13,185 nucleotides of DNA from Roseicyclus sp. (GTDB lineage Bacteria; Pseudomonadota; Alphaproteobacteria; Rhodobacterales; Rhodobacteraceae). Below, one piece after another: positions 2,081-13,185 of the stretch. The stretch spans positions 1-13,185 of the forward strand of contig JAGYLB010000076.1 of NCBI GenBank assembly GCA_018401055.1, read 5' to 3'. Within the stretch, counting starts at the first letter, position 1; each line of letters begins with the position of its first letter. The translations under genes were made by a program, and so were the position numbers. Under the pieces are notes generated by a model that worked only from the letters and a program-made list of their open reading frames with translations, was not told where the DNA came from and did not search any database.

Positions 2081-3100
2081 TCAGGCCGCGAGCCCGGGCG
2101 CGTCGTCCGTGCCGTCATCCTCCGGCCCGGATCCCCTCCCTCCGTAGTCCGCCATCGACATGAGCCGCGCGACGCCGTCGAGGAAACGCTGCTGCAGGGC
2201 GCGTACCCGGCGAGCCGCGGGCGCATCCCCCCGCACGAGCAGCAGGTCGGCACTGCCGGCCATGACCGCGTGCATATGCTGGCGGTCGCCGTCATCCTCC
2301 ACCGAGAGGAGCGCATGAAGCCCCTTCGCCAACAGGCGCAGCGGACGGTCGAGATCACGCTGTTCCGGCAGCGCGGTGACCTCTGCGAGCCGGGTAAGAA
2401 GACCTTCGCGGGCGGCCTCTGCCGCGGCCAGGTCCGCCGCGACCTCCGGAGCGAACACGTCGCTCACGGCGTCGCGCTGGATCCGCCGCTCCGCAGCCAC
2501 GGAGGTCTCGAGACAGCGCAGAGCGCCGGTGAAGGCACGGCTCACCTCCGTATGGGCGGTGGGGAGATCCTCCCTGTCCGCCGCCGGGCCAGCCCCCATC
2601 TCCATCTGCACGTCCGCCGGCGGCGTGTCCTGCGGTTCGCCGGACCCGTCGATATAGCCGCCGAGCGCGTCCAGCGCGGCCTCGACGGCCGCATTATGGA
2701 AGGCGTGACCCGGCACGGTGGCCGGCAGCTGCCAGACCCAGCGCGCCACGGTCAGCCCGGCGCGAATGCGGGCCACCTCAACCGGATCCCCGGACCGGAT
2801 AACGGCCCCGACCAGCACCGCGACCCGCTGGAGACCGGCGGTCTGCAGCGTGACGAGGGGCTGGGCGATCAGCGCCTCGCAGTGCTCGAGAACGCGGGCC
2901 CGGGCCTCATCGACGGCAGCCTGATAGGCGGAGAGGGCGGGGTCGAAGCCGCCATCGTCGCCAAGGTCGCGCTCGGCGGTGGTCAGATCGACCAGCGCGC
3001 GGGTCATCGCGCGAGCGCGGATGAGCGTGGACAGGGTGAAGGTGAAGGGGGACGCGGAATTGAATCCGCCCGCGTGCGGGGTTACGTAGTTCTCAGCCAT
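2081..3100 (-). CDS. Unknown 339-aa protein, first gene of a leftward accessory set
   Basis: The start at ATG 3100 is well supported: GAGGAG lies 7 bases upstream. The protein appears soluble and mostly alpha-helical, with no signal peptide. A helix-rich first half (about residues 20-150, including AYQAAVDEARARVLEH) is followed by an acidic, Pro/Gly-rich linker (about 152-185). A second helical, Ala/Arg/Leu-rich region (about 185-320) contains possible coiled-coil stretches such as AADLAAAEAAREGLLTRLAE. The last 20 residues are acidic and Gly-rich. I do not recognise a family. Strong GC3 bias and the ribosome site support a real gene. It is transcribed divergently from the DUF927 gene and is followed by a tiny ORF and the nuclease-like gene, so these may form one accessory unit; its function is unknown. 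Confidence 0.7.
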   Translation of the reverse strand: MAENYVTPHAGGFNSASPFTFTLSTLIRARAMTRALVDLTTAERDLGDDGGFDPALSAYQAAVDEARARVLEHCEALIAQPLVTLQTAGLQRVAVLVGAVIRSGDPVEVARIRAGLTVARWVWQLPATVPGHAFHNAAVEAALDALGGYIDGSGEPQDTPPADVQMEMGAGPAADREDLPTAHTEVSRAFTGALRCLETSVAAERRIQRDAVSDVFAPEVAADLAAAEAAREGLLTRLAEVTALPEQRDLDRPLRLLAKGLHALLSVEDDGDRQHMHAVMAGSADLLLVRGDAPAARRVRALQQRFLDGVARLMSMADYGGRGSGPEDDGTDDAPGLAA

Positions 3101-3300: not shown

Positions 3301-3547
3301 AAAGCAGACAGACCGACGGACTGTGTGGGTCGCTAATCCGGAAGGCCTCTCGGAACGGTGCGGGAGGGTCTCCGCGCGTCTCGCTCGGCGCGACAGGTGC
3401 GGGGCTCGGTCAAAATCTCCCTCTCAAGGAGGTGTCCCCATTGGATGGGCGGACGCAGTTGTTATATATCTGAAAATCGTTGGACTGTTTGAGCGTGCCT
3501 GTCCACCGGGGCAGGCCTGGTCCTCGAAGCCAGCCAAGGAGACGCGC

Positions 3548-5302
3548 ATGTCAGACGAAACCACTAAACATGAGGGATCTGCCGCGGATCAGATCACGCC
3601 TGAAGGGGCACCGCAGCCGCAGGCCGATCCGCTCCTGGAGCAGGTCCGTACCCGCCTGCCGGAGGACTATGAGCTGATCGGCCCCTTGATCCACCAGATC
3701 CGATCGGCCGGTCGCACGAAACCGCTCTGCGGACCGGTCCTCGTGCGCTCGCAGGCCCGCGGGGCGGATGGAACCGGCTGGAGCCTGGACGTGGCCTTCC
3801 GCACCTTCGATGGGGATTGGCAGAGCGCCGTGCTGCCGATGCGGGACCTGCTGAAGGCGCCGGCGCGGGTGGTGGCAGGGCTGGTCGATCGTGGCCTGGA
3901 TCTCCGGGGCAAGCCCGGCGAGGTCTGCGATCTGTTGCGGGCGATGGAGGTCGACCGCGTCGGCCTTGCGGTCGGTGTGACCGGATGGGTTGGAACGGAC
4001 TTCCAGCGGTTCATCCTCCCCTCGGGTGTGGTCCTGACCGGGTCAGGAAACTCCGATGCGGCGGGCGTCCTCTTCACCGGGGAGCCGCGTGTCTCGGCAC
4101 GGCCGATGGCCGAGGCTGACCGTGCCGCGTCAGCTGCAAAGTGGCTCGAGGGGGTGATCGGGCGGACGCCAGATAATGCCGTCATGCTGGGTCTCTGCGC
4201 CGCGATCGCGCCGGCGCTGATGCCGATCACGGCGGAGCAGTCGTGGTCCTTCCTGCTGCATCTGCACGGCAGCGACGGGGCCGGCCGGCTGAGCCGTGCG
4301 GTCGCCGCCAGTGTCTGGGCGCAGCCGACCGAGCTGCATCTGACCTGGTCGGAGCCGCAGTCGCGCCTTCTTGCGGCGATCCGCGAGGCCCGGGACGGTC
4401 TGGTGCTGATCTCCGGCTACGAGCCGCGTCATCACCGCAAGATCCCGGCGATCGCCGAGGCGCTGACCGGGATTGACGCCGCCGGCCGCGGCCGGGTCGT
4501 CGTGCTCTCGACGGGCATGGTCCCGCTCCTTGGCGGCGACGGCAAAGCGCTGCCGGGTCAGGATCTGCGCAACATCATCGATATCGACTCCCGATCCTGG
4601 GAGGTGGAAGACCCCGAGCGGGTCCTGGCGGTCGCAGCGCAGCATGCGGGCAGCTTCGGTCCGGAGTTGTTGCGGGCGAGCATTGACTGGGGCGTCGGGT
4701 CACGGGGTCAGTACCTTGGTATCAGAACCGATGACATCCGCGACAGTGTGGCCGGACCGGATGACCTCCCACTTGATGCTGAAACCGAGCGTGTCGTGCT
4801 TGCTTGCGGAGCAATGTACGCAGCGGGGCATTTGGTAACACTACGCATGAAATCTTTCCTGGCCGGGCCGCAGGCCCCGCTCCAAACGAGGCTCGAGACC
4901 TTCTGCACCCACCTCCTCGAAAGCTGGATCGCCAGGCACCGTGGCGTGCTGTCGGCGCAGGATCGCGCCCTGCTCAGCCGCGCGGCCACTGCGGTTCGGG
5001 ATCTCCTGCGAGACGAGGCTCTGGCGTCGCTGGATGACCCGGACGGGACCGTTCCGATCAGCGAGACCGGGTGGTTCGACGACAGCTTCGTCTATCTCAC
5101 CGCGCCCACGATGGCTGGCATCGCACATGCGGCAGAAGCTGACCTCGGGCGGCTTTTCGATCTCCTGCAGGTGCAGGATCTACTCAAGCCCGGCGGTGAG
5201 CGTGGCTTCCAGTACAAGCTGCCCAGTCGGGTCCCCGGCAGGCCACGCGCCTACCGCATCTCGCGGGATGTTTTGAGGTTCGCAGCCGCCGGCCAGAGCT
5301 GA
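3548..5302 (+). CDS. DUF927-family protein with degenerate ATPase motifs
   Basis: The start is ATG 3548, with AAGGAG 6 bases upstream; an earlier in-frame ATG (3323) has no such site. The product has 584 aa. After an acidic, Pro-rich N-terminus, residues about 60-400 follow the layout of DUF927 (COG5519) helicase-like ATPases from plasmids and phages. These blocks are GWVGTDFQRFILPSG (146-160), SWSFLLHLHGSDGAGRLSRA, SVWAQP (255-260), and RVVVLSTGMVPLL (316-328). In active relatives the P-loop reads like GPSSTGKTT; here it is GSDGAGRLS (241-249), without the Lys. The Walker B position, normally ending DE, reads LVLISGYEP (285-293). The C-terminal part (about 530-575, ending RPRAYRISRDV) resembles the winged-helix-like tail of the family. 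The protein is therefore probably a non-hydrolysing relative. It is transcribed divergently from the unknown/nuclease-like set; its role is unknown. Confidence 0.75.
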   Translation: MSDETTKHEGSAADQITPEGAPQPQADPLLEQVRTRLPEDYELIGPLIHQIRSAGRTKPLCGPVLVRSQARGADGTGWSLDVAFRTFDGDWQSAVLPMRDLLKAPARVVAGLVDRGLDLRGKPGEVCDLLRAMEVDRVGLAVGVTGWVGTDFQRFILPSGVVLTGSGNSDAAGVLFTGEPRVSARPMAEADRAASAAKWLEGVIGRTPDNAVMLGLCAAIAPALMPITAEQSWSFLLHLHGSDGAGRLSRAVAASVWAQPTELHLTWSEPQSRLLAAIREARDGLVLISGYEPRHHRKIPAIAEALTGIDAAGRGRVVVLSTGMVPLLGGDGKALPGQDLRNIIDIDSRSWEVEDPERVLAVAAQHAGSFGPELLRASIDWGVGSRGQYLGIRTDDIRDSVAGPDDLPLDAETERVVLACGAMYAAGHLVTLRMKSFLAGPQAPLQTRLETFCTHLLESWIARHRGVLSAQDRALLSRAATAVRDLLRDEALASLDDPDGTVPISETGWFDDSFVYLTAPTMAGIAHAAEADLGRLFDLLQVQDLLKPGGERGFQYKLPSRVPGRPRAYRISRDVLRFAAAGQS

Positions 5303-5532: not shown

Positions 5533-5560
5533 TCAACCGCATTTGTGGAGCAGGACAAGC
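5479..5560 (+). pseudogene. Possible N-terminal fragment of a GNAT acetyltransferase
   Basis: From ATG 5479 the frame reads MTAYPIRRCDDLMAVAIRST then AFVEQD. This resembles the start of GNAT-family N-acetyltransferases, in which an IRR...DLM..AIRS.VF..EQ pattern forms the first strand and helix. The acetyl-CoA-binding motif (R/Q-x-x-G-x-G/A) does not follow, because the sequence then becomes the antisense of the PP2C-like gene. I infer that a GNAT gene was cut by a rearrangement near base 5550. The match is short and made by eye, and the ATG has no good ribosome site. Confidence 0.3.
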
Positions 5561-6474
5561 CCCATATCGTCATGGCGGCCGCTGGCGGTCGGCCCTTTCA
5601 AGCAAGCAAATCGTCGGGTTCGCTGCGAGTCTTCCAAATGGACAGCCGTGGCCGCCTTGATCCAGCTGTCGACATGCTGACCCGCGGGCAACAGCCAGCC
5701 ATCGGTCCAAAGTGCAAGCGCCCTGACGCTGTTGGCCCGGACCCTTACATGCCAACAAAAGTCATGACCCATGTCGCCCACGCCATCGGCAACGCCGAAG
5801 CTGAGCGGATCGCCCGGTGGTGCGGCGCGCATGCCGGCCAGACCGACTTGCAGCGCGCGTTCGCCCAGCACGGAGGCCTCCGCCAGGATAGGTTTCGCGA
5901 CCCGCCGCGCATCCGCATCCGCCTGTGCCAGGCCACCAAGCAGCGCCGCACGAATGTCTGCCTCCGACTTCTGTGGATCGTCGGCGATCATCGCGGCGCG
6001 CCAGGCGGCAAAGACTGGCTCGGCGGGATGGTCACGCAGAACCGGCGGGGCGTCGTCGATCCGAAGCGCGCAATCCCCCACACCGACGCCGCGCCAGACG
6101 CCATCGCGGAGCGAGGCGACGGCAAAGGCAGCCCGAAAGCGGCGCGCGGGGTCTTGCGCGGCCTCGATCAGGTCGAAGCGGTGGTAGAGTGCTGCGATGG
6201 CATGGTCGGCCAACGCCAGTGTCTTTTCAGCAGATGCGAAAAGGTCGGGCCCGCCCTGCCGCGCGTGGGACCAGCTTTGCGCGAAGGCGGCAGCTATGGC
6301 CTCGGCGGCCAGCGCCCCGCCGGTCTGTCCATCGAAGCGCTGGCCCGTGATGTCGGTCGCCCCGTCGATCACCGCCACGAAATCGGGCGGCAGGACCAGC
6401 ACGCGATCCTCGCAGGCACCGGGGGCCGCGTCATCCTTGGGCAGAACAAGGCTTTCGAAAACCCACCCTGTCAT
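5533..6474 (-). CDS. PP2C-like serine/threonine or small-molecule phosphatase
   Basis: The 313-aa soluble protein carries the metal-binding layout of PP2C phosphatases: E22-D23 near the N-terminus, FVAVIDGATD (32-41), GQTGGALAAEAI (49-60), GVGDCAL (131-137), LWTDGW (255-260) and GRHDDMGLVLL (299-309). These acidic residues normally hold two Mn2+/Mg2+ ions that activate water for phosphate-ester hydrolysis, and they all appear present. There is no kinase, receptor or sensor domain. The ATG at 6474 overlaps the TGA of the phosphodiester glycosidase (ATGA), so it is last in a coupled leftward operon. Its substrate could be a phosphoprotein regulating the transporter or a sugar phosphate; the sequence does not decide. 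The final residues (HKCG) lie at the suspected junction near 5550, so the native C-terminus may be slightly altered. Confidence 0.75.
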   Translation of the reverse strand: MTGWVFESLVLPKDDAAPGACEDRVLVLPPDFVAVIDGATDITGQRFDGQTGGALAAEAIAAAFAQSWSHARQGGPDLFASAEKTLALADHAIAALYHRFDLIEAAQDPARRFRAAFAVASLRDGVWRGVGVGDCALRIDDAPPVLRDHPAEPVFAAWRAAMIADDPQKSEADIRAALLGGLAQADADARRVAKPILAEASVLGERALQVGLAGMRAAPPGDPLSFGVADGVGDMGHDFCWHVRVRANSVRALALWTDGWLLPAGQHVDSWIKAATAVHLEDSQRTRRFACLKGPTASGRHDDMGLVLLHKCG

Positions 6475-7724
6475 GAAAGGACAAGCCCGAGCGGCAGGGG
6501 ACGGTCGAATTGGGCCGGGCTGTCGGGCATGGCGTGATGCACGTCACGAGGTGCGATCAATGCGCCGCCGCCATGACAAAACACCTGTGTCGAGCCGCCG
6601 CCATCGAGATGCAGGGCGCACATGGCGCCTTGGTCGATCATCAACTGCGCCAGATCATGTAGCGTCGCGCCCTGGGCCGGACCGTCGCGGAAGAACGAAG
6701 ACGTACCCTCGACCGCACAAAAGAACAGGCGGCCATCCCTTGTGATCCCCGCCGACAGGCGCGCGGCCCGCGTGCGGTGCCAGTCGGCAGCCCAAGCATA
6801 GGGCGAGACGGGCACGCTGTCAGGGCGCAGGGCGTCGCTCGACATCAGTTCCTCGGCAAAGACATCGCGCCCGACTTCCGTGGTCTGTCCACCCTCGACG
6901 ATCAGCGGACCTGACTGGACGCCGTGGTGCAGACCGGGCAGCTCGTAGGTGACCGGGCCTGTGACGACAGCTTCGGCCTCGGACCGGGTGGCACAGCGCA
7001 GCACGCAGCCCGCGCGGGGAATGGACAGCCGCCCGCCTTCCGACAGGGCAACGGCGTGGCGACCGACAACGGCCACATCCCAAACCCCATCTGCCGCTGG
7101 CGTAAGCCCCCGGTCCGAACCATGGAACAGGGCAAAGGCCGTTCCGGCACCTGCCAGCTTTGGCGGGCCGAAGGGATGCGGCGTGAACACCTGCCCCCGC
7201 ACGGCCCGGATGGTTGTCTGGGCAAAGCCAAGGCGCCGGATCTCGGGGCCGGCAGCGCCGAGCAACAGACAGCTGCGTGGGATCTGCGGCGGTGTCTCGA
7301 CAACACCATCGACCAACGTCAGGCCGATCGGGTCACCATATGCGTCAAACGGGTCTGCGATTTCGGCCGCAAGGAACAAGAAATAATTGGCATTTATCAA
7401 GATCTCGCCGGGTTGAAGCCCCGCCGCCACGGTCCTGAGCAACCGTAAAGGCGCGCAGGCCATACCGGATTGCGCATCGGCCCGGGCGGCAAGGCGTAGG
7501 CTGCCGCCCACGTCACGGGGTGCCATCCGCCGCGCGGCAGGCGGGACGGGAACAACCGGCTGCCCCAGCCGTGCCTCGGCCAGGACCAGCGCCAGCCGAG
7601 TCTCATCAGGGGGCGCGTCTTGCGTGAAGCAGGGCAGAATGCGGAAGCCGCGCGGCTCCAGGCGGACGATGCGGGCCGTGCTCCCCGAGGCCAGCCGCTG
7701 TTCGAGATACCGGACCTCGACCAT
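6471..7724 (-). CDS. Phosphodiester glycosidase family protein (NAGPA domain)
   Basis: The 417-aa protein has the hallmark blocks of the NAGPA/DUF2233 family. These are ILINANYF (about 108-115) with GDPIGLTLVDG after it, GPLIVEGG (272-279), RLSAGITRDGRLFFCAVEG (322-340), TLHDLAQLMIDQGAMCALHL and DGGGSTQVF (374-382). The family includes the enzyme that removes GlcNAc from GlcNAc-1-phosphodiesters, and bacterial members cleave sugar-1-phosphodiester bonds. No signal peptide or membrane anchor is seen, so it should act in the cytoplasm, which fits a role after import by the neighbouring ABC system. I chose ATG 7724, which overlaps the ATPase stop as TGATG; GTG 7727 (GTGA overlap) is possible. 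A long N-terminal region (1-100) before the domain is unassigned. The family is confident, the substrate inferred. Confidence 0.83.
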   Translation of the reverse strand: MVEVRYLEQRLASGSTARIVRLEPRGFRILPCFTQDAPPDETRLALVLAEARLGQPVVPVPPAARRMAPRDVGGSLRLAARADAQSGMACAPLRLLRTVAAGLQPGEILINANYFLFLAAEIADPFDAYGDPIGLTLVDGVVETPPQIPRSCLLLGAAGPEIRRLGFAQTTIRAVRGQVFTPHPFGPPKLAGAGTAFALFHGSDRGLTPAADGVWDVAVVGRHAVALSEGGRLSIPRAGCVLRCATRSEAEAVVTGPVTYELPGLHHGVQSGPLIVEGGQTTEVGRDVFAEELMSSDALRPDSVPVSPYAWAADWHRTRAARLSAGITRDGRLFFCAVEGTSSFFRDGPAQGATLHDLAQLMIDQGAMCALHLDGGGSTQVFCHGGGALIAPRDVHHAMPDSPAQFDRPLPLGLVLS

Positions 7725-8821
7725 CACGACACTTGGCGTTGGGTGCGCGTCAGAGCCTGACCGCCGCTGTTGAAGACATGCACCTTGTCGGGCAGGGCCA
7801 GTACAGTCACCCTTTGGCCGGGTGCCAGATCTGTGTCGCCCGCGACGACCGCCGACAACGCCGCGCCACTGTCGGTGCGGGCATGAACAACGGTATGCGG
7901 GCCCAGACGTTCCAGCACGCTAAGCCGCACGGGGATGCCGCCTTGCGCGACAACGGCCAGATCGTCGGGGCGGATGCCAATGCTGATCGTCTCCCCCTCC
8001 GCAAGGCCGCGACCGTCGACAGCGGCCTCGATGCGCTGGTCGGACCCGATCGTGGCAACCACGCGCAACGAGTCGGCCCGATCGACCTTGGCCTGCAGCA
8101 GGTTCATCGGCGGCTGCCCAATGAAGCCCGCGACAAAGCGCGTGGCGGGCGCGCGGTAAATGTCCATCGGCGCGCCGACTTGTTCGACCTGCCCGCCATT
8201 CAGCACCACGATGCGTTCGGCCATGGTCATCGCCTCGACCTGGTCATGGGTGACATAGATCATGGTTGTGCCCAGTTGCCGGTGCAGTTCGGCCAGTTCC
8301 ACCCGCATCTGACCGCGCAATGCCGCGTCGAGGTTCGAGAGCGGCTCGTCGAAGAGGAACACCGACGGCTCGCGCACGATGGCCCGACCGATGGCGACGC
8401 GCTGACGCTGGCCGCCCGACAGCTGCGCAGGCTTACGGTCGAGCAGGTCGCCGATGCGCAGGATTTCTGCCGCCCGGTCGATGGCCGTCGCCTGCTCGGC
8501 TCGGCCCATCCGCAGCGAACGGAGCGGAAAGGCCATGTTCTCACGCACGCTCATATGGGGGTAGAGCGAATAATTCTGGAACACCATGGCGATGCGCCGC
8601 TCGGCTGGTTCCAATCCCGTTACGTCGCGCCCACCGATGCGCAGGATGCCCGAGGTCGGCGCATCCAACCCCGCGAGGATGCGCAACAGCGTGGATTTCC
8701 CGCAACCTGACGGTCCGACGATGACGGTGAAAGACCCATCCGCAATATCGAGATCGATACCACGCAGCACCTCGTTTGGGCCGAAGCGGCGGGTGATCGC
8801 GTGCAGGGAAACCTCGGCCAC
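7724..8821 (-). CDS. ABC transporter ATPase, MalK/UgpC type
   Basis: The 365-aa protein has every nucleotide-binding motif: Walker A GPSGCGKST (36-44), Q-loop FQNYSLYP (81-88), signature LSGGQRQRV (134-142), Walker B VFLFDEP (154-160), D-loop SNLD and the switch His192 in YVTHD. A C-terminal extension (about 236-350), including RPDDLAVV and HTVVHARTD, is the MOI/TOBE region of the CUT1 subfamily, so it energises carbohydrate-type importers. It starts at GTG 8821, 12 bp after the PHP gene stop; GAGGG lies about 9 bases upstream. It overlaps the phosphodiester glycosidase gene at its 3' end. It is the only ATPase in view and presumably serves the permeases encoded divergently at 11145-12940. 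In related systems this subunit may be shared among transporters. Confidence 0.95.
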   Translation of the reverse strand: MAEVSLHAITRRFGPNEVLRGIDLDIADGSFTVIVGPSGCGKSTLLRILAGLDAPTSGILRIGGRDVTGLEPAERRIAMVFQNYSLYPHMSVRENMAFPLRSLRMGRAEQATAIDRAAEILRIGDLLDRKPAQLSGGQRQRVAIGRAIVREPSVFLFDEPLSNLDAALRGQMRVELAELHRQLGTTMIYVTHDQVEAMTMAERIVVLNGGQVEQVGAPMDIYRAPATRFVAGFIGQPPMNLLQAKVDRADSLRVVATIGSDQRIEAAVDGRGLAEGETISIGIRPDDLAVVAQGGIPVRLSVLERLGPHTVVHARTDSGAALSAVVAGDTDLAPGQRVTVLALPDKVHVFNSGGQALTRTQRQVS

Positions 8822-8833
8822 GTTACGCCGCCC

Positions 8834-9748
8834 TCATGATAGCCAGACCGGGTTGGTCCAGGCGTGGCGCCCGTGCCGGTCGCGCAGGATGATGCGGAAA
8901 TACCCGTTCGCCATCCCGGCAAGTGGCAGCGTCACGCGGTTGGCGATTTCGGTGACCGCCGCGTGGGCACGCCGCGCGCGGCTGCCGACAAGCGCGGCCG
9001 TGACCACCGGCGAGCAGTCGATGACAAGCGCCTCACCCTCGACCCGGATGTCGTGGATCATCGGACCTTGGGTGGCATAGAACTGCCCTGCATGTAGGGC
9101 TGCAAGGATCGCCTCGGGTGTCAGGGCAGTGGCCTTGACCATCGTCCAACCGCCGCCAAAGCCCACGCCCAGCCGGTGCATGTCATCAGTGGCGATGGCG
9201 GTCAGGCGACGCCCTTCGTTCAGAGCCATGTCGGCCAGATACCAGCCATCGCCGCGCATCTGCCCGATCTCGGTGCCGTGATTGTAGACTTCGACGGCAT
9301 GGACCATGGGGAGCGACCGCACATCCTCGGGCGTCAGGGCGAACCAGCCGGGATGGGTGAAGGCGAGAAAAGCGCCCGCTTCCGCCGCACGGGCGCAGAT
9401 CGCTTCGGCCGTCTCGCCCACGACCGGGGGCGCGAAATCCCACGGCAGGCCGACCGCGACAATGTGCCAAAGCTCCCCATTGCCGAGCCGACCCTGATGC
9501 AGTTCAGCGCCCGCAAGCGTGATGAACTGCTCGCTTTGGCAAGCGCGCGTGTCGGTCACCAGATGCCCGTATTGAGGCAGGAAGTGATCGGTGATGGCGA
9601 TGAAGTCATAACCCTCGCGCGCATAGGCCGCGCAGGCCTCCTCCGCGCTGTGGGCGCCGTCGGAGCCTTTGGAATGCATGTGCAGATTGCCGCGCCAGAA
9701 CCGGCCAGGGGCCGTGAACGGCAGTTGCGTCTCGATCAGGTCGGTCAT
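8834..9748 (-). CDS. PHP-domain metallohydrolase (CehA/McbA-like)
   Basis: The 304-aa protein has the PHP-domain metal ligands in order: NLHMHSKGSDG (H23, H25, D30), FIAITDHF (D54-H55), LAGAELH (E82), LWHIVAV (H95), FTHPGW (H132) and ATDDMHRLG (D188-D189, H191). PHP proteins hydrolyse phosphate esters or, in the CehA/McbA group, other esters and carbamates, using two or three metal ions. The C-terminal 80 residues form a beta-rich tail typical of this single-domain group rather than of polymerase-linked PHP domains. It has no signal peptide and is therefore cytoplasmic. I chose ATG 9748, just after GGGGGACCA; an in-frame start at 9817 would run across the divergent promoter. As first gene of the leftward operon it probably acts on the imported compound. 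The fold is confident, the reaction not. Confidence 0.85.
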   Translation of the reverse strand: MTDLIETQLPFTAPGRFWRGNLHMHSKGSDGAHSAEEACAAYAREGYDFIAITDHFLPQYGHLVTDTRACQSEQFITLAGAELHQGRLGNGELWHIVAVGLPWDFAPPVVGETAEAICARAAEAGAFLAFTHPGWFALTPEDVRSLPMVHAVEVYNHGTEIGQMRGDGWYLADMALNEGRRLTAIATDDMHRLGVGFGGGWTMVKATALTPEAILAALHAGQFYATQGPMIHDIRVEGEALVIDCSPVVTAALVGSRARRAHAAVTEIANRVTLPLAGMANGYFRIILRDRHGRHAWTNPVWLS

Positions 9749-9776
9749 TGGTCCCCCGCGCGGCTGCCCTGAAGAC

Positions 9777-9793
9777 GATGTCACAAAAACATC
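9777..9793. promoter_or_regulatory. Inverted repeat, candidate operator
   Basis: GATGT and ACATC flank 7 bases, giving a 17-bp site about 30 bp upstream of the PHP start. The same bases can be read as direct heptamers ATGTCAC-AAAA-ACATCAC (9778-9795), a spacing like a Pho box but with a poor second half. Either reading is tentative. Confidence 0.25.
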
Positions 9794-9809
9794 ACCCACG
9801 CCCGCTACC

Positions 9810-9823
9810 GATGCCACGGCATC
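9810..9823. promoter_or_regulatory. 14-bp palindrome at the centre of the divergent region
   Basis: GATGCC-AC-GGCATC has perfect 6-bp arms around two bases. It lies about 61 bp from the PHP start and about 50 bp from the binding-protein start, near the middle of the region. The form suits a dimeric regulator such as a LacI- or GntR-type protein, but no regulator gene is in the window. Confidence 0.35.
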
Positions 9824-9873
9824 CGGGGGTTATCCACCTGCCGAATGATGAAGTTTTGATGACGGGGGACCCC

Positions 9874-11148
9874 ATGAGCTTTATGAAATCCGCGCTTTGC
9901 GCATCCGCCTTGACGTGCATCGCAGGTGCAGCAGTCGCGCAAAACACCACGCTGACCTATATGCTGTGGTCGACCGACCAAGCCGAGATCGAGGAAAGCG
10001 CCATCGCGGCCTTCGAAGCGGCCAACCCTGGCGTGACTGTCGAGGTTCAGGCGATGCCACCGGCCGATTACTGGCCGCGCGTCTCCGCGCTGGCGGCCTC
10101 GGGCGATCTGCCCGATGTCATGGCGATGTCTTCGGGCTTCGTCCAGGAATGGGCGGCTGCGGGCAACCTGATGGACCTGACCCCGTTGATTGGCGGCACT
10201 TCGCTCGAGGGCTATTTTGAAAGCGCGGTCGAGATCGGGCAGATTAGCGGCCAGCAGGTTGCCTTCCCACAGAACTGGGTTGCCCCTGTGCTCTACTACA
10301 ACCGCACGGCGTTTGATGCGGCGGGCCTTGACCACCCCTCGGCCGACTGGACATGGGACGATTTCCGCACCGCCGCCGAGGCGCTGACCATCGACGCCGA
10401 TGGCGACGGCACGCCCGAGCAGTATGGCTACTGGGTCTATGGCCGCTACGCCCAGACCGACCCTTGGGTGTTCCGCAATGGTGGGCGCTTCGTGAACGCG
10501 GACGGCACTGCGCTAGAGATCAACGAGGAAGCGGTCAACGCGCTCGCCTTCCTCGCTTCGATCGTCGATGACGGCTTTGCCCCCCGCCCGCTGGAGCTTG
10601 AGGGCATCCGCCAGCAAGACGTGTTCGGCATGGGCATGGCGGCGATGTGGGTCGACGGATCGTGGAACATCGACAATAACCGCCGCTTGATCGGCGACAG
10701 CTTCGAATGGGGTATCGCGCAGGTTCCCGTGGGCCCCGACGCCACCCCCGAGACCGCCGTTGCCTACGCTTGGGCCGACATGCTGGCCGTGACGACCGAC
10801 AGCGAACAGACCGATCTGGCTTGGGCGCTGGTGCAGCACCTGACCGGCCCGACGCTGCGTGCTGCGGATTTCACCGGCGGCAAGGTGCCCGCATGGACGG
10901 CCACCGCGATGTCCGAGGAATGGCTTGGCCGCGGCCAGCAGCCTGACAACATGGAACTGATCCTCGAGATCGGGACCCAGCCGCTCTACACCGGCTTTAC
11001 CCCGAACTGGAGCGCGTGGCGCGGCTATGCCGCCGCTGGTTCGGGCGGTCTGAACGGCGAGTTGGACGAAGTATTCAACGGGCGCAAATCGCTTGCGGAT
11101 GCGCTGGCTGCTGCCACCGCTTACGGCAACGACATCCTGTCCCGGTGA
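9874..11148 (+). CDS. Extracellular solute-binding protein, CUT1 sugar type
   Basis: The 424-aa precursor has a Sec signal peptide, MSFMKSALCASALTCIAGAA then VA, with likely cleavage after A22 (AVA-Q). The mature start, TTLTYMLWSTDQAEIEESAI, followed by FEAANPGVTVEVQ, is the family-1 binding-protein pattern: a first strand, then a helix, then the P-x-V-x-V strand. Later blocks DLPDVMAMSS, LYYNRTAFDAAGLDHP, DWTWDDFRTAAEAL and MGMAAMWVDGSW are standard in periplasmic sugar-binding proteins. It would capture the substrate in the periplasm and dock on the permeases encoded next. I chose ATG 9874 because it follows GGGGGACCCC and puts the signal peptide at the N-terminus. It is the first gene of the rightward operon; the ligand cannot be read from sequence. 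Confidence 0.92.
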   Translation: MSFMKSALCASALTCIAGAAVAQNTTLTYMLWSTDQAEIEESAIAAFEAANPGVTVEVQAMPPADYWPRVSALAASGDLPDVMAMSSGFVQEWAAAGNLMDLTPLIGGTSLEGYFESAVEIGQISGQQVAFPQNWVAPVLYYNRTAFDAAGLDHPSADWTWDDFRTAAEALTIDADGDGTPEQYGYWVYGRYAQTDPWVFRNGGRFVNADGTALEINEEAVNALAFLASIVDDGFAPRPLELEGIRQQDVFGMGMAAMWVDGSWNIDNNRRLIGDSFEWGIAQVPVGPDATPETAVAYAWADMLAVTTDSEQTDLAWALVQHLTGPTLRAADFTGGKVPAWTATAMSEEWLGRGQQPDNMELILEIGTQPLYTGFTPNWSAWRGYAAAGSGGLNGELDEVFNGRKSLADALAAATAYGNDILSR

Positions 11149-12098
11149 GCGAAATCACCACAGCACGCGCCCCCGACCCCCGGGGGCGCGTGCCCGTTTC
11201 CAAGAGCGACCACGCCCCGATCCGGCGGCGGTCGCAGTGGAAAATTTGGGGTCCGGCGCTGCTGTTTCTTTTGCCCGCGATCGTCGGGCTTTTGGTATTC
11301 CGGCTAATCCCCATCGGCTGGGCCTTTGCCCTGTCCTTCACCAACTGGCGTATCTTCAACAATATCGAATGGGTCGGTCTGGCCAATTACGCCCACATCC
11401 TGACCTCGCCCGTCGCGCGCGAGGTGCTGGGCAATACGCTGTGGTTCACCGCGATGTATGTGCCGGGCGTCATGGTCGTATCGGTGACGCTCGCGGTGCT
11501 GCTCAACAACTCGCTCCGGTCGTCCACCTTTTTTCGCGGCGCGTTTTTCCTGCCCTACATCACCGCCACCGTCGCCGTCACGCTGGCCTGGCGCTGGATC
11601 TTTTCCACCCGCTTCGGGCTTTTGAACCACCTGCTGGGGCAGCTCGACATTGACCGGATCGCCTGGCTTGCGGATCCGGCCTGGGCCCTGCCGGCGGTCG
11701 CCATCGTATCGGTCTGGAAGGATGCGGGGTTTTACATGATCTTGCTGATCGCGGGCCTTCAGACCATCGACCCCGGTCTTTACGAGGCCGCCCGCGTCGA
11801 TGGCGCGCGGGCCTTTCGGCGGTTCTACGCAATCACCCTGCCGCTGTTATCGCGCAGCCTGTTCTTTGTTCTTATTCTTGCGCTGGTGCGGTCCACCCAG
11901 ACCTTCGAGATCACTTATGCGCTGACCAATGGCGGGCCGAACCGGGCGTCGACCACGCTGGCCTTCTATATTTACCAAAACGCCTTTGTGCATTTCGAGA
12001 TGGGCTATGCCTCGGCCTTGGCCTATGTGCTATGTTTCGTCATCGGGCTAATCACGCTGTTGAATTTCCACCTGCGGCGGAGGTGGGTCCATGAATGA
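11145..12098 (+). CDS. ABC transporter permease, MalF/UgpA type
   Basis: The 317-aa inner-membrane protein has about six hydrophobic segments (near 36-56, 100-122, 133-153, 181-205, 236-256 and 289-309). Its cytoplasmic EAA loop, YEAARVDGARAFRRF followed by ITLPLL (213-235), contacts the ATPase. The NGGPNRASTTLAFYIYQNAF segment is typical of the MalF/UgpA-like CUT1 permease. GTG 11145 overlaps the binding-protein stop as GTGA and is the longest credible start. GTG 11190 is an alternative that would leave a 13-bp stem-loop mostly outside the coding region. The first 30 residues are polar and poorly constrained, so the start is uncertain. It pairs with the permease encoded immediately downstream, whose gene it overlaps by 8 bp. 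Confidence 0.92.
   Translation: MSEITTARAPDPRGRVPVSKSDHAPIRRRSQWKIWGPALLFLLPAIVGLLVFRLIPIGWAFALSFTNWRIFNNIEWVGLANYAHILTSPVAREVLGNTLWFTAMYVPGVMVVSVTLAVLLNNSLRSSTFFRGAFFLPYITATVAVTLAWRWIFSTRFGLLNHLLGQLDIDRIAWLADPAWALPAVAIVSVWKDAGFYMILLIAGLQTIDPGLYEAARVDGARAFRRFYAITLPLLSRSLFFVLILALVRSTQTFEITYALTNGGPNRASTTLAFYIYQNAFVHFEMGYASALAYVLCFVIGLITLLNFHLRRRWVHE
11163..11193 (+). other. Strong GC stem-loop after the binding-protein gene
   Basis: A perfect 13-bp inverted repeat (GCACGCGCCCCCG, 11163-11175, and CGGGGGCGCGTGC, 11181-11193) surrounds a 5-base loop. It starts 14 bases after the binding-protein stop and has no T-run, so it is not a classic terminator. In many ABC operons a hairpin here protects the upstream mRNA or thins transcription, giving more binding protein than permease. 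It overlaps the beginning of the permease reading frame if GTG 11145 is used. Confidence 0.6.
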
Positions 12099-12940
12099 AA
12101 CCCTGCGCCGCGCCCCTGCGCTGATCGCGCTTTATGCCGTGCTGCTGGCCTATGCCGCCGTCACCCTGTTGCCCTTTGCCTGGATGCTGATCACCAGCTT
12201 CAAGGAAAGCCGCGATGTGTTCCGCCTGCCGCCCAGTTTCGTGCCGACGATGCTGTATGGCCCCGATCCGCTGGCCAATTATACCGAGGTGCTGACGCAG
12301 CACGATTTCCTGCTGTATTTCCGGAATTCCTTTTTCGTCTCGACCATGGCGGCGCTTGGGCAAGTGGCGACCTGCGCGCTTGCGGGCTATGCCTTTGCGC
12401 GGATGGAACTTCCGGGCAAGAACGTGATCTTCGCCCTCATTCTCGCCACCGCCTTTGTGCCGACCGAGGTGACGATCATCCCCGAATTCCTGCTTATGCG
12501 CAGCCTTGGATGGATCGACAGTTTTCTGCCGCTGATCGTGCCGTCGTTTCTCGTCGGGTCCTTCGGGACCTTCATGTTGCGCGAATATTTTCGCGAGCCT
12601 TCCCGCCGAATACGGCGAGGCCGCGCGGATCGACGGGGCGGGACCGTGGCGCATCTTCTGGCGGGTCTATCTGCCGCTGGCACGGCCCGCGCTGATCTCG
12701 ATCTTCGTGATCGCCTTTATCAATAACTGGGACGAATTGCTGCGCCCGCTGCTCTATCTCAACTCGCCCGAGTTGCGCACGGTGCCGCTGGGGCTGATGC
12801 GGTTCGTTGGTGAATTCGAGGCGGAATGGACCCTGCTGATGGCGGGTTCCGTCGCCTCCACGCTGCCGCTGATCCTAATCTATGTGCTCGGGCAGAAATA
12901 CGTGCTTCAGGGCTTTGCGGGCGGCGGCGTCAAGGGGTGA
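12091..12940 (+). pseudogene. ABC transporter permease, MalG/UgpE type, with a one-base frameshift
   Basis: The gene starts at ATG 12091 with GGAGGT 7 bases upstream, inside the end of the first permease gene. The first 167 residues are a normal MalG/UgpE-like protein, including ATAFVPTEVTIIPEFLLMRS and SFLVGSFGTFMLREYF. At the TTTT of 12588-12591 the frame is lost. Read with one T removed, the protein continues ASLPAEYGEAARIDGAGPWR and IFWRVYLPLARPAL (the EAA loop), then INNWDELLRPLLYL, to TGA 12940. That gives a full 282-aa permease. As written, the frame instead runs to a stop near 12726 and lacks the EAA loop and the last two membrane segments, so the transporter would not work. Everything else is intact, so a very recent mutation or a sequencing error in the T run are both plausible. 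Confidence 0.85.
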
Positions 12941-13016
12941 CGCCGTCATGCGCTTGTCATCTGCGCGCGGTAGCTTTGCGGTCGAGAACAATCCGCTTCC
13001 GGACGAGGGAACCACC

Positions 13017-13185
13017 ATGAAAACGCCGATGATCGCAACGCTTGCCGCCGCCCTGCTGGCTGGCCCCGCCTTGGCCCAGACCGCAGACGTGTCGGGGCGG
13101 CTGGTCCTTTACACCTCGCAGCCCAACCAAGATGCGCAGCGCACAGTCGATGCGTTCAACGCAGTCTATCCCAACGTGACCGTCG
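13017..13185 (+). CDS. Second ABC solute-binding protein, Fe3+/AfuA type (partial)
   Basis: The frame starts at ATG 13017, 76 bp after the permease stop, with GAGGGA shortly upstream; 56 codons are present before the window ends. A signal peptide, MKTPMIATLAAALLAGPALA, is followed by likely cleavage before Q21. The mature protein begins with GRLVLYTSQPNQDAQRTVDA, then FNAVYPNVTV. The L-V-L-Y-T-S-Q-P opening is typical of the binding proteins annotated for Fe3+ uptake (FbpA/AfuA-like), a different family from the CUT1 protein at 9874. Some members of that family bind iron; AfuA has been reported to bind hexose phosphates instead. It may end the rightward operon or begin a second transporter to the right. 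Confidence 0.82.
   Translation, partial: MKTPMIATLAAALLAGPALAQTADVSGRLVLYTSQPNQDAQRTVDAFNAVYPNVTV

Follow-up and report, generated by a model that had tools for sequence, protein, structure and literature searches.

A 13,185-nucleotide stretch of contig JAGYLB010000076.1 from Roseicyclus sp. (hereafter the window) carries a CUT1-type ATP-binding cassette (ABC) importer in which the genes for the binding protein and two permeases diverge from a coupled operon encoding a PHP metallohydrolase, the transporter ATPase, a NAGPA-type protein and a PP2C-fold protein. Comparison with related loci provides good support for a constant core composed of the transporter and a cytoplasmic NAGPA-type glycosidase, to which PHP and PP2C have been added in a subgroup of Rhodobacterales. 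Based on these comparisons, we tentatively propose, with confidence slightly short of even, that the locus could take up and salvage a small N-acetylhexosamine-1-phosphodiester under the control of phosphate starvation.

The transporter-NAGPA core and its distribution

A single NAGPA sequence found no match in the contigs of the species genomes, and an alignment-based query succeeded, from which the best 80 of 99 NAGPA-relative loci were analysed and the 19 weaker ones left out. Eleven of these (L001-L011) form the family, with best segments 37-81% identical, and the next locus (L012) stands at 27%. Judged by name, all eleven are from Alphaproteobacteria. The binding protein and both permeases lie beside NAGPA in 11/11 family loci and beside none of the other 69, which by name are mostly from Firmicutes (tblastn at 1e-8; many of these loci are short, and a distant CUT1 transporter may escape this search). 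In L001-L003 the position of NAGPA matches that in the window, inside the divergent operon; in L004-L011 it follows the second permease, and six of these loci (L006-L011) have a ROK-type regulator after it (assigned by clustering, with a profile test in L008 only). The full seven-gene set occurs in L001 and L002, and L003 lacks only PP2C; Roseicyclus mahoneyensis DSM 16097 has the complete set; thus the gene order, for which the initial annotation had recommended a wider search, is not unique to this genome, as two of the eleven loci hold all seven genes. Four genomes have a second NAGPA-family gene elsewhere, in no case with a window gene above 60 bits within ~1.5 kb.

A separate protein search recovered 69 NAGPA homologs among the 7999 candidates sharing most words. 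A hydrophobic 15-mer (mean of at least 1.8 within the first 45 residues) was present in only two (P0059, P0064) of the 60 homologs longer than 380 residues. P0059 is a 701-residue predicted protein in which a UgpE-like permease is joined to NAGPA in one frame, and this join could reflect either a genuine fusion or a frameshift.

The rarity of the components was surveyed across 394 genomes from the family to which the Roseicyclus genome G001 belongs (taken to be Rhodobacteraceae). NAGPA was found in three genomes, the binding protein at 1e-60 or better in six (60-94% identity), and PP2C in seven, two of them close (85 and 77%) and five distant (29-35%). PHP was rejected as a marker of the system: 114 of the genomes have a match, only three of which reach 77% identity, and homologs at ~50% identity are widespread without the transporter. 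In the family of the Agrobacterium genome G003 (taken to be Rhizobiaceae), NAGPA occurred in 1 of 394 genomes, the centre genome alone. A search for PP2C on plasmids found none.

Several observations weigh against a single functional set as originally proposed. No PHP or PP2C ortholog was found in eight of the eleven loci (L004-L011) within fetched stretches of up to 10 kb on each side. Genome G084 retains the transporter, PHP, ATPase and PP2C with NAGPA reduced to a 66-residue remnant at 44% identity, and its PHP match contains one TGA, for which reason this cluster may be decaying. Two further genomes, G298 (locus L126) and G350 (locus L127), have the transporter without NAGPA; what they carry instead is a distant PP2C and a gene of Gfo/Idh/MocA type, assigned by a profile test in L126 and by clustering in L127, together with an extra gene, ROK in G298 and AgaS-family in G350 (255 of 529 bits, below the cut-off). 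The initial suggestion that the three enzymes form one set is therefore not borne out by their conservation, with no PHP or PP2C ortholog seen in the fetched stretches of eight loci and one cluster holding only a NAGPA remnant.

The features of the window are as follows (plus, rightward; minus, leftward).

5533..6474, minus: PP2C-fold phosphatase, 313 residues, final gene of the leftward operon
6471..7724, minus: predicted NAGPA-type phosphodiester glycosidase, 417 residues, without signal peptide
7724..8821, minus: UgpC/MalK-type ABC transporter ATPase, 365 residues; ABC_tran 122.3 bits, and above the UgpC subfamily cut-off (NF008653, 461.7 bits, cut-off 432)
8834..9748, minus: CehA/McbA-type PHP metallohydrolase, 304 residues from an ATG near the starts of relatives; NF038032 95.5 bits, cut-off 80
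9749..9858, no strand: divergent promoter region, 110 bp, with gene starts set by comparison with relatives
9778..9795, plus: PHO-box-like site ATGTCACAAAAACATCAC, score 22/28
9859..11148, plus: CUT1 solute-binding protein with signal peptide (hydrophobic N-terminus); PF01547 (SBP_bac_1) 120.3 bits
11145..12098, plus: CUT1 permease 1; PF00528 (BPD_transp_1) 45.3 bits, 91.7% identity to L001
12091..12940, plus: CUT1 permease 2, frame broken near 12588; first 167 residues 95% identical to L001
13017..13185, plus: start of the binding protein of a second importer; open frame running off the window end

The gene positions and operon coupling given by the initial annotation were confirmed (a 12-bp gap between PHP and ATPase, TGATG between ATPase and NAGPA, and a 4-bp ATGA overlap between NAGPA and PP2C), with starts revised from relatives to 9748 for PHP, 7724 for NAGPA and 9859 for the binding protein. 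The permease 2 gene exceeds its 849-base L001 relative by one base, which breaks the frame; this break may reflect a real mutation or a sequencing error. A simple hydropathy scan detected no hydrophobic N-terminal segment in PHP or NAGPA and none resembling a signal in PP2C, and the binding protein N-terminus is hydrophobic and signal-like. The three enzymes thus look cytoplasmic, in agreement with the earlier remark that they have no visible signal peptide.

Family membership is clearest for NAGPA, which scores 66.5 bits against a cut-off of 25 for PF09992 and whose structure model has the NAGPA catalytic-domain fold. The PP2C protein falls just short of the PP2C_2 cut-off (23 bits against 24), while its model has the PPM fold with conserved metal-binding aspartates; the family profile had no match among PDB chains at E 0.1. 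Similarly, the PHP protein is just short of Pfam PHP (PF02811, 25.9 bits against 26.4), exceeds the cut-off for the NCBIfam CehA/McbA metallohydrolases, and has a weak PDB match to 3e38, a PHP-like protein.

Adjoining the cluster, the window encodes a DUF927 protein at 3323-5302 (PF06048, 50.2 bits), preceded by two unassigned leftward frames at 1443-1922 and 2081-3100. Together they may mark a mobile or island region.

Probable phosphate control of the divergent promoter

Alignment of the divergent region from the window, L001, L002, L003 and L125 revealed one strongly conserved block, readable as a pair of 7-nt repeats flanking an A-rich spacer of 4 nt. The sections consulted of PMC3131613 and PMC4415409 give this arrangement of 7-nt repeats and 4-nt spacer for PHO boxes, including those of rhizobia. 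Invariant columns make up 13 of 18 positions in the block versus 7 of the 47 others present in all five sequences (Fisher 2e-5). Sites were scored with a weighted consensus with author-chosen weights and a maximum of 28. The window site is the top score in the window, a value reached by 0.5% of random stretches of the same length, and the corresponding fractions are 1.2% for L002, 2.6% for L003 and 0.4% for L125; a scan of the whole L001 locus places its site at 7936 (22/28). Locus L126 has diverged in this region and has a site of 24/28 before the binding protein (random 1.2%), making it the sixth locus with such a site. The window, L001, L002, L003, L125 and L126 (~116 kb) together contain 14 sites scoring at least 22, against two in the 17 loci L128-L144 (~281 kb) and none in L127 or L004; some of the 14 lie inside genes or at other promoters.

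As the PHO-box-like site is conserved in five loci and present in a sixth, phosphate-starvation control of the Rhodobacterales version of the system is likely, and the phosphate relevance assumed by the initial annotation gains independent support. The evidence is good but not conclusive, because the weights were author-chosen and most of the loci are related. Counting against the proposal, no significant PHO box was found in L004, L006-L011, L085 or L127 (random 8% to 72%), and the score in L005 is borderline (random 5%). A second match in the window (9848, minus strand, 20/28) overlaps the binding protein start and was given no weight, because its conservation may derive from that start.

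Near the cluster is a second ABC importer with a PhnS2-like binding protein and a PhnU2-like permease, both below NCBIfam cut-offs (L002, L003). In the window only the putative start of its binding protein is present (13017-13185); the importer lies at 12911-17963 in L001, 15866-18590 in L002 and 1969-4883 in L003. It adjoins the cluster in the window and L003, and the distance is ~0.7 kb in L001 and 3.7 kb in L002. A weak site precedes it in the window (12943, 21/28), and a 26/28 site precedes it in L001 (12772). L005 encodes a PhoX alkaline phosphatase (11394-13382, 575.6 bits) just past NAGPA on the opposite strand.

Cargo and proposed pathway

Additional insight into the cargo is provided by the Agrobacterium fabrum plasmids pAt3 and pAt1D132b, which carry the core and are treated as one observation because they share 12 kb at 99.9% identity. 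The order is a ROK kinase on the opposite strand, the binding protein, two permeases and NAGPA, followed by a ROK regulator, UgpC, a SIS protein, a frame outside the gene table and a sodium/phosphate (Na/Pi) transporter. Catabolism of N-acetylglucosamine (GlcNAc) consists of kinase, deacetylase and deaminase steps, and the neighbours on these plasmids point to GlcNAc as the cargo. Several scores count against this assignment: the NCBIfam matches fall below the equivalog cut-offs for GlcNAc kinase (146.6 of 380) and NagB-II (284.1 of 430), NagA reaches 223.8 of 225.65 in a frame that is broken at its end, and no GlcNAc-type genes were found beside the window's own cluster. The Na/Pi transporter scores 405.4, above its cut-off of 306.15, and a Na/Pi-like frame follows the ATPase in L010 (judged from the protein start). 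These Na/Pi-like genes are presumably kin to YjbB. YjbB is described, in the part of PMC11389368 available to us, as a Na/Pi transporter that promotes phosphate export, and by analogy such export would fit a cell consuming a phosphodiester for its sugar.

An N-acetylhexosamine-1-phosphodiester, that is, GlcNAc- or N-acetylgalactosamine-1-phosphate joined to another alcohol or sugar, appears to be the best single guess for the ligand, at about even odds. The binding protein, CUT1 permeases and UgpC-type ATPase, a transporter by sequence, would import the intact diester. The cytoplasmic NAGPA-type enzyme, assigned by its modelled fold, would then cut the sugar-phosphate bond and free the amino sugar, and PHP and PP2C would cleave the remaining phosphoesters and release phosphate. 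The gain would be phosphorus in Rhodobacterales and the amino sugar in Rhizobiaceae. Import of a sugar phosphodiester followed by stepwise cleavage had been proposed in the initial annotation. That reading is partly supported: the phosphate relevance and the cytoplasmic enzymes hold up, one conserved set of three enzymes does not, and the ligand stays a proposal.

An ordinary CUT1 importer for a phosphate-free amino-sugar oligosaccharide, with a NAGPA-fold plain glycosidase and side jobs for PHP and PP2C, would accommodate the Agrobacterium neighbours as generic GlcNAc catabolic genes, and also the ROK regulators in the cluster loci, since these are common in sugar operons. The PDB gives a similar picture: proteins annotated as sugar binders account for many of the top hits to the binding protein, with the unnamed Lmo0181 in first place. 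We nevertheless consider this explanation unlikely in view of the PHO-box-like promoter, the A. fabrum plasmid gene for a Na/Pi transporter, and the NAGPA fold and motifs.

The phosphodiester proposal also has a nucleotide-sugar variant, in which UDP-GlcNAc (uridine diphosphate N-acetylglucosamine) or similar N-acetylhexosamine-1-phosphodiesters would be imported whole, NAGPA would free the sugar, and PP2C and PHP would be catabolic phosphatases rather than signalling enzymes, with the nucleotide or phosphomonoester set free by NAGPA as their substrate. This variant seems improbable, although the available portion of PMC12024695 reports that the uncovering enzyme can hydrolyse UDP-GlcNAc. The operon of L008 ends in a nucleoside-hydrolase-family gene (PF01156, 56.6 bits) instead of a Na/Pi gene, so a nucleotide-containing substrate is conceivable, and this gene and the recurrence of PP2C with importers of two binding-protein families both hint at such a route.

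Another explanation, compatible with other readings of the transporter and NAGPA, holds that PP2C tunes the transporter as a protein phosphatase and that PHP is an unrelated esterase. The best structural matches of the PP2C model are mostly protein phosphatases, the PHP family is named after CehA/McbA, and of the 12 wide loci with a PHP relative at ~50% identity (L133-L144), 5 have histidine-utilisation genes nearby (by clustering, profile-tested in L143). Such non-catabolic roles are rather doubtful given that, of the 7 genomes from the PP2C search, 6 have PP2C clustered with genes for ABC importers, which belong to two binding-protein families. This pattern agrees with a common type of cargo, but also with common regulation. 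In L128, L129, L130 and L132 the PP2C-fold family is clustered with an SBP_bac_6-type binding protein or an ATPase.

Relation to known systems and biological meaning

By analogy, the locus may work like the agrocinopine and Ugp systems, in which import is followed by cleavage. As described in the sections consulted of PMC7356202, agrocinopine, a sugar phosphodiester, is bound, imported and cleaved inside the bacterium by the Agrobacterium acc system (AccA/AccF). The proposed uptake of an intact sugar phosphodiester with internal cleavage resembles this system by description; however, the AccF phosphodiesterase frees glucose-2-phosphate (PMC7356202, same sections), whereas a NAGPA-type glycosidase would be expected to break the sugar-phosphate bond.

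Resemblance to UgpBAEC(Q) includes the UgpC-type ATPase, the combination of importer and hydrolase and the likely phosphate-starvation control. A Ugp-like importer of glycerophosphodiesters or glycerol-3-phosphate, with NAGPA as a minor accessory, would be consistent with the ATPase score, with UgpA as the best NCBIfam match of the permease, and with the PhoB-dependent UgpB/UgpC of Phaeobacter MED193 given in the portion seen of PMC10132767. It is distinctly unlikely, as the binding protein (34.8 bits against 411 for UgpB) and permease (126.4 against 335) are below the Ugp equivalog cut-offs, no glycerophosphodiesterase domain was found among the 10 window proteins scanned, and NAGPA is linked to the transporter throughout the family. 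Judged by its binding protein, the locus is not a Ugp system; that same low score also counts against the phosphodiester proposal.

The window NAGPA has the same fold and aligned C-terminal motifs as the vertebrate mannose-6-phosphate uncovering enzyme NAGPA and bacterial DUF2233 proteins, but is without a signal sequence and tied to an importer; the distant DUF2233-type homolog P0069, unlike it, has a hydrophobic N-terminus. Table 1 of PMC10132767, as far as seen, lists for Phaeobacter sp. MED193 PhoB-dependent, phosphate-starvation-induced sugar ABC transporter proteins and a 'predicted phosphodiesterase' with neighbouring locus tags, and the binding protein is also up in a phoB mutant. This pairing of a sugar importer with a phosphodiesterase under phosphate starvation is likened to the present locus by description. 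The initial annotation knew of no described pathway with this exact gene set, and within the sources covered in part by our literature search no published description of a transporter-NAGPA-PHP-PP2C set was found.

If the proposed phosphodiester salvage is correct, some Rhodobacterales would obtain phosphorus by importing whole sugar phosphodiesters, whose sources would be capsules, teichoic acids, glycoconjugates or nucleotide sugars, and in plant-associated bacteria the same core, carried on conjugative plasmids, would have been adapted to the use of amino sugars. A NAGPA-type enzyme of the cytoplasm would thereby gain a bacterial role, and a PP2C-fold enzyme a candidate role in metabolism.

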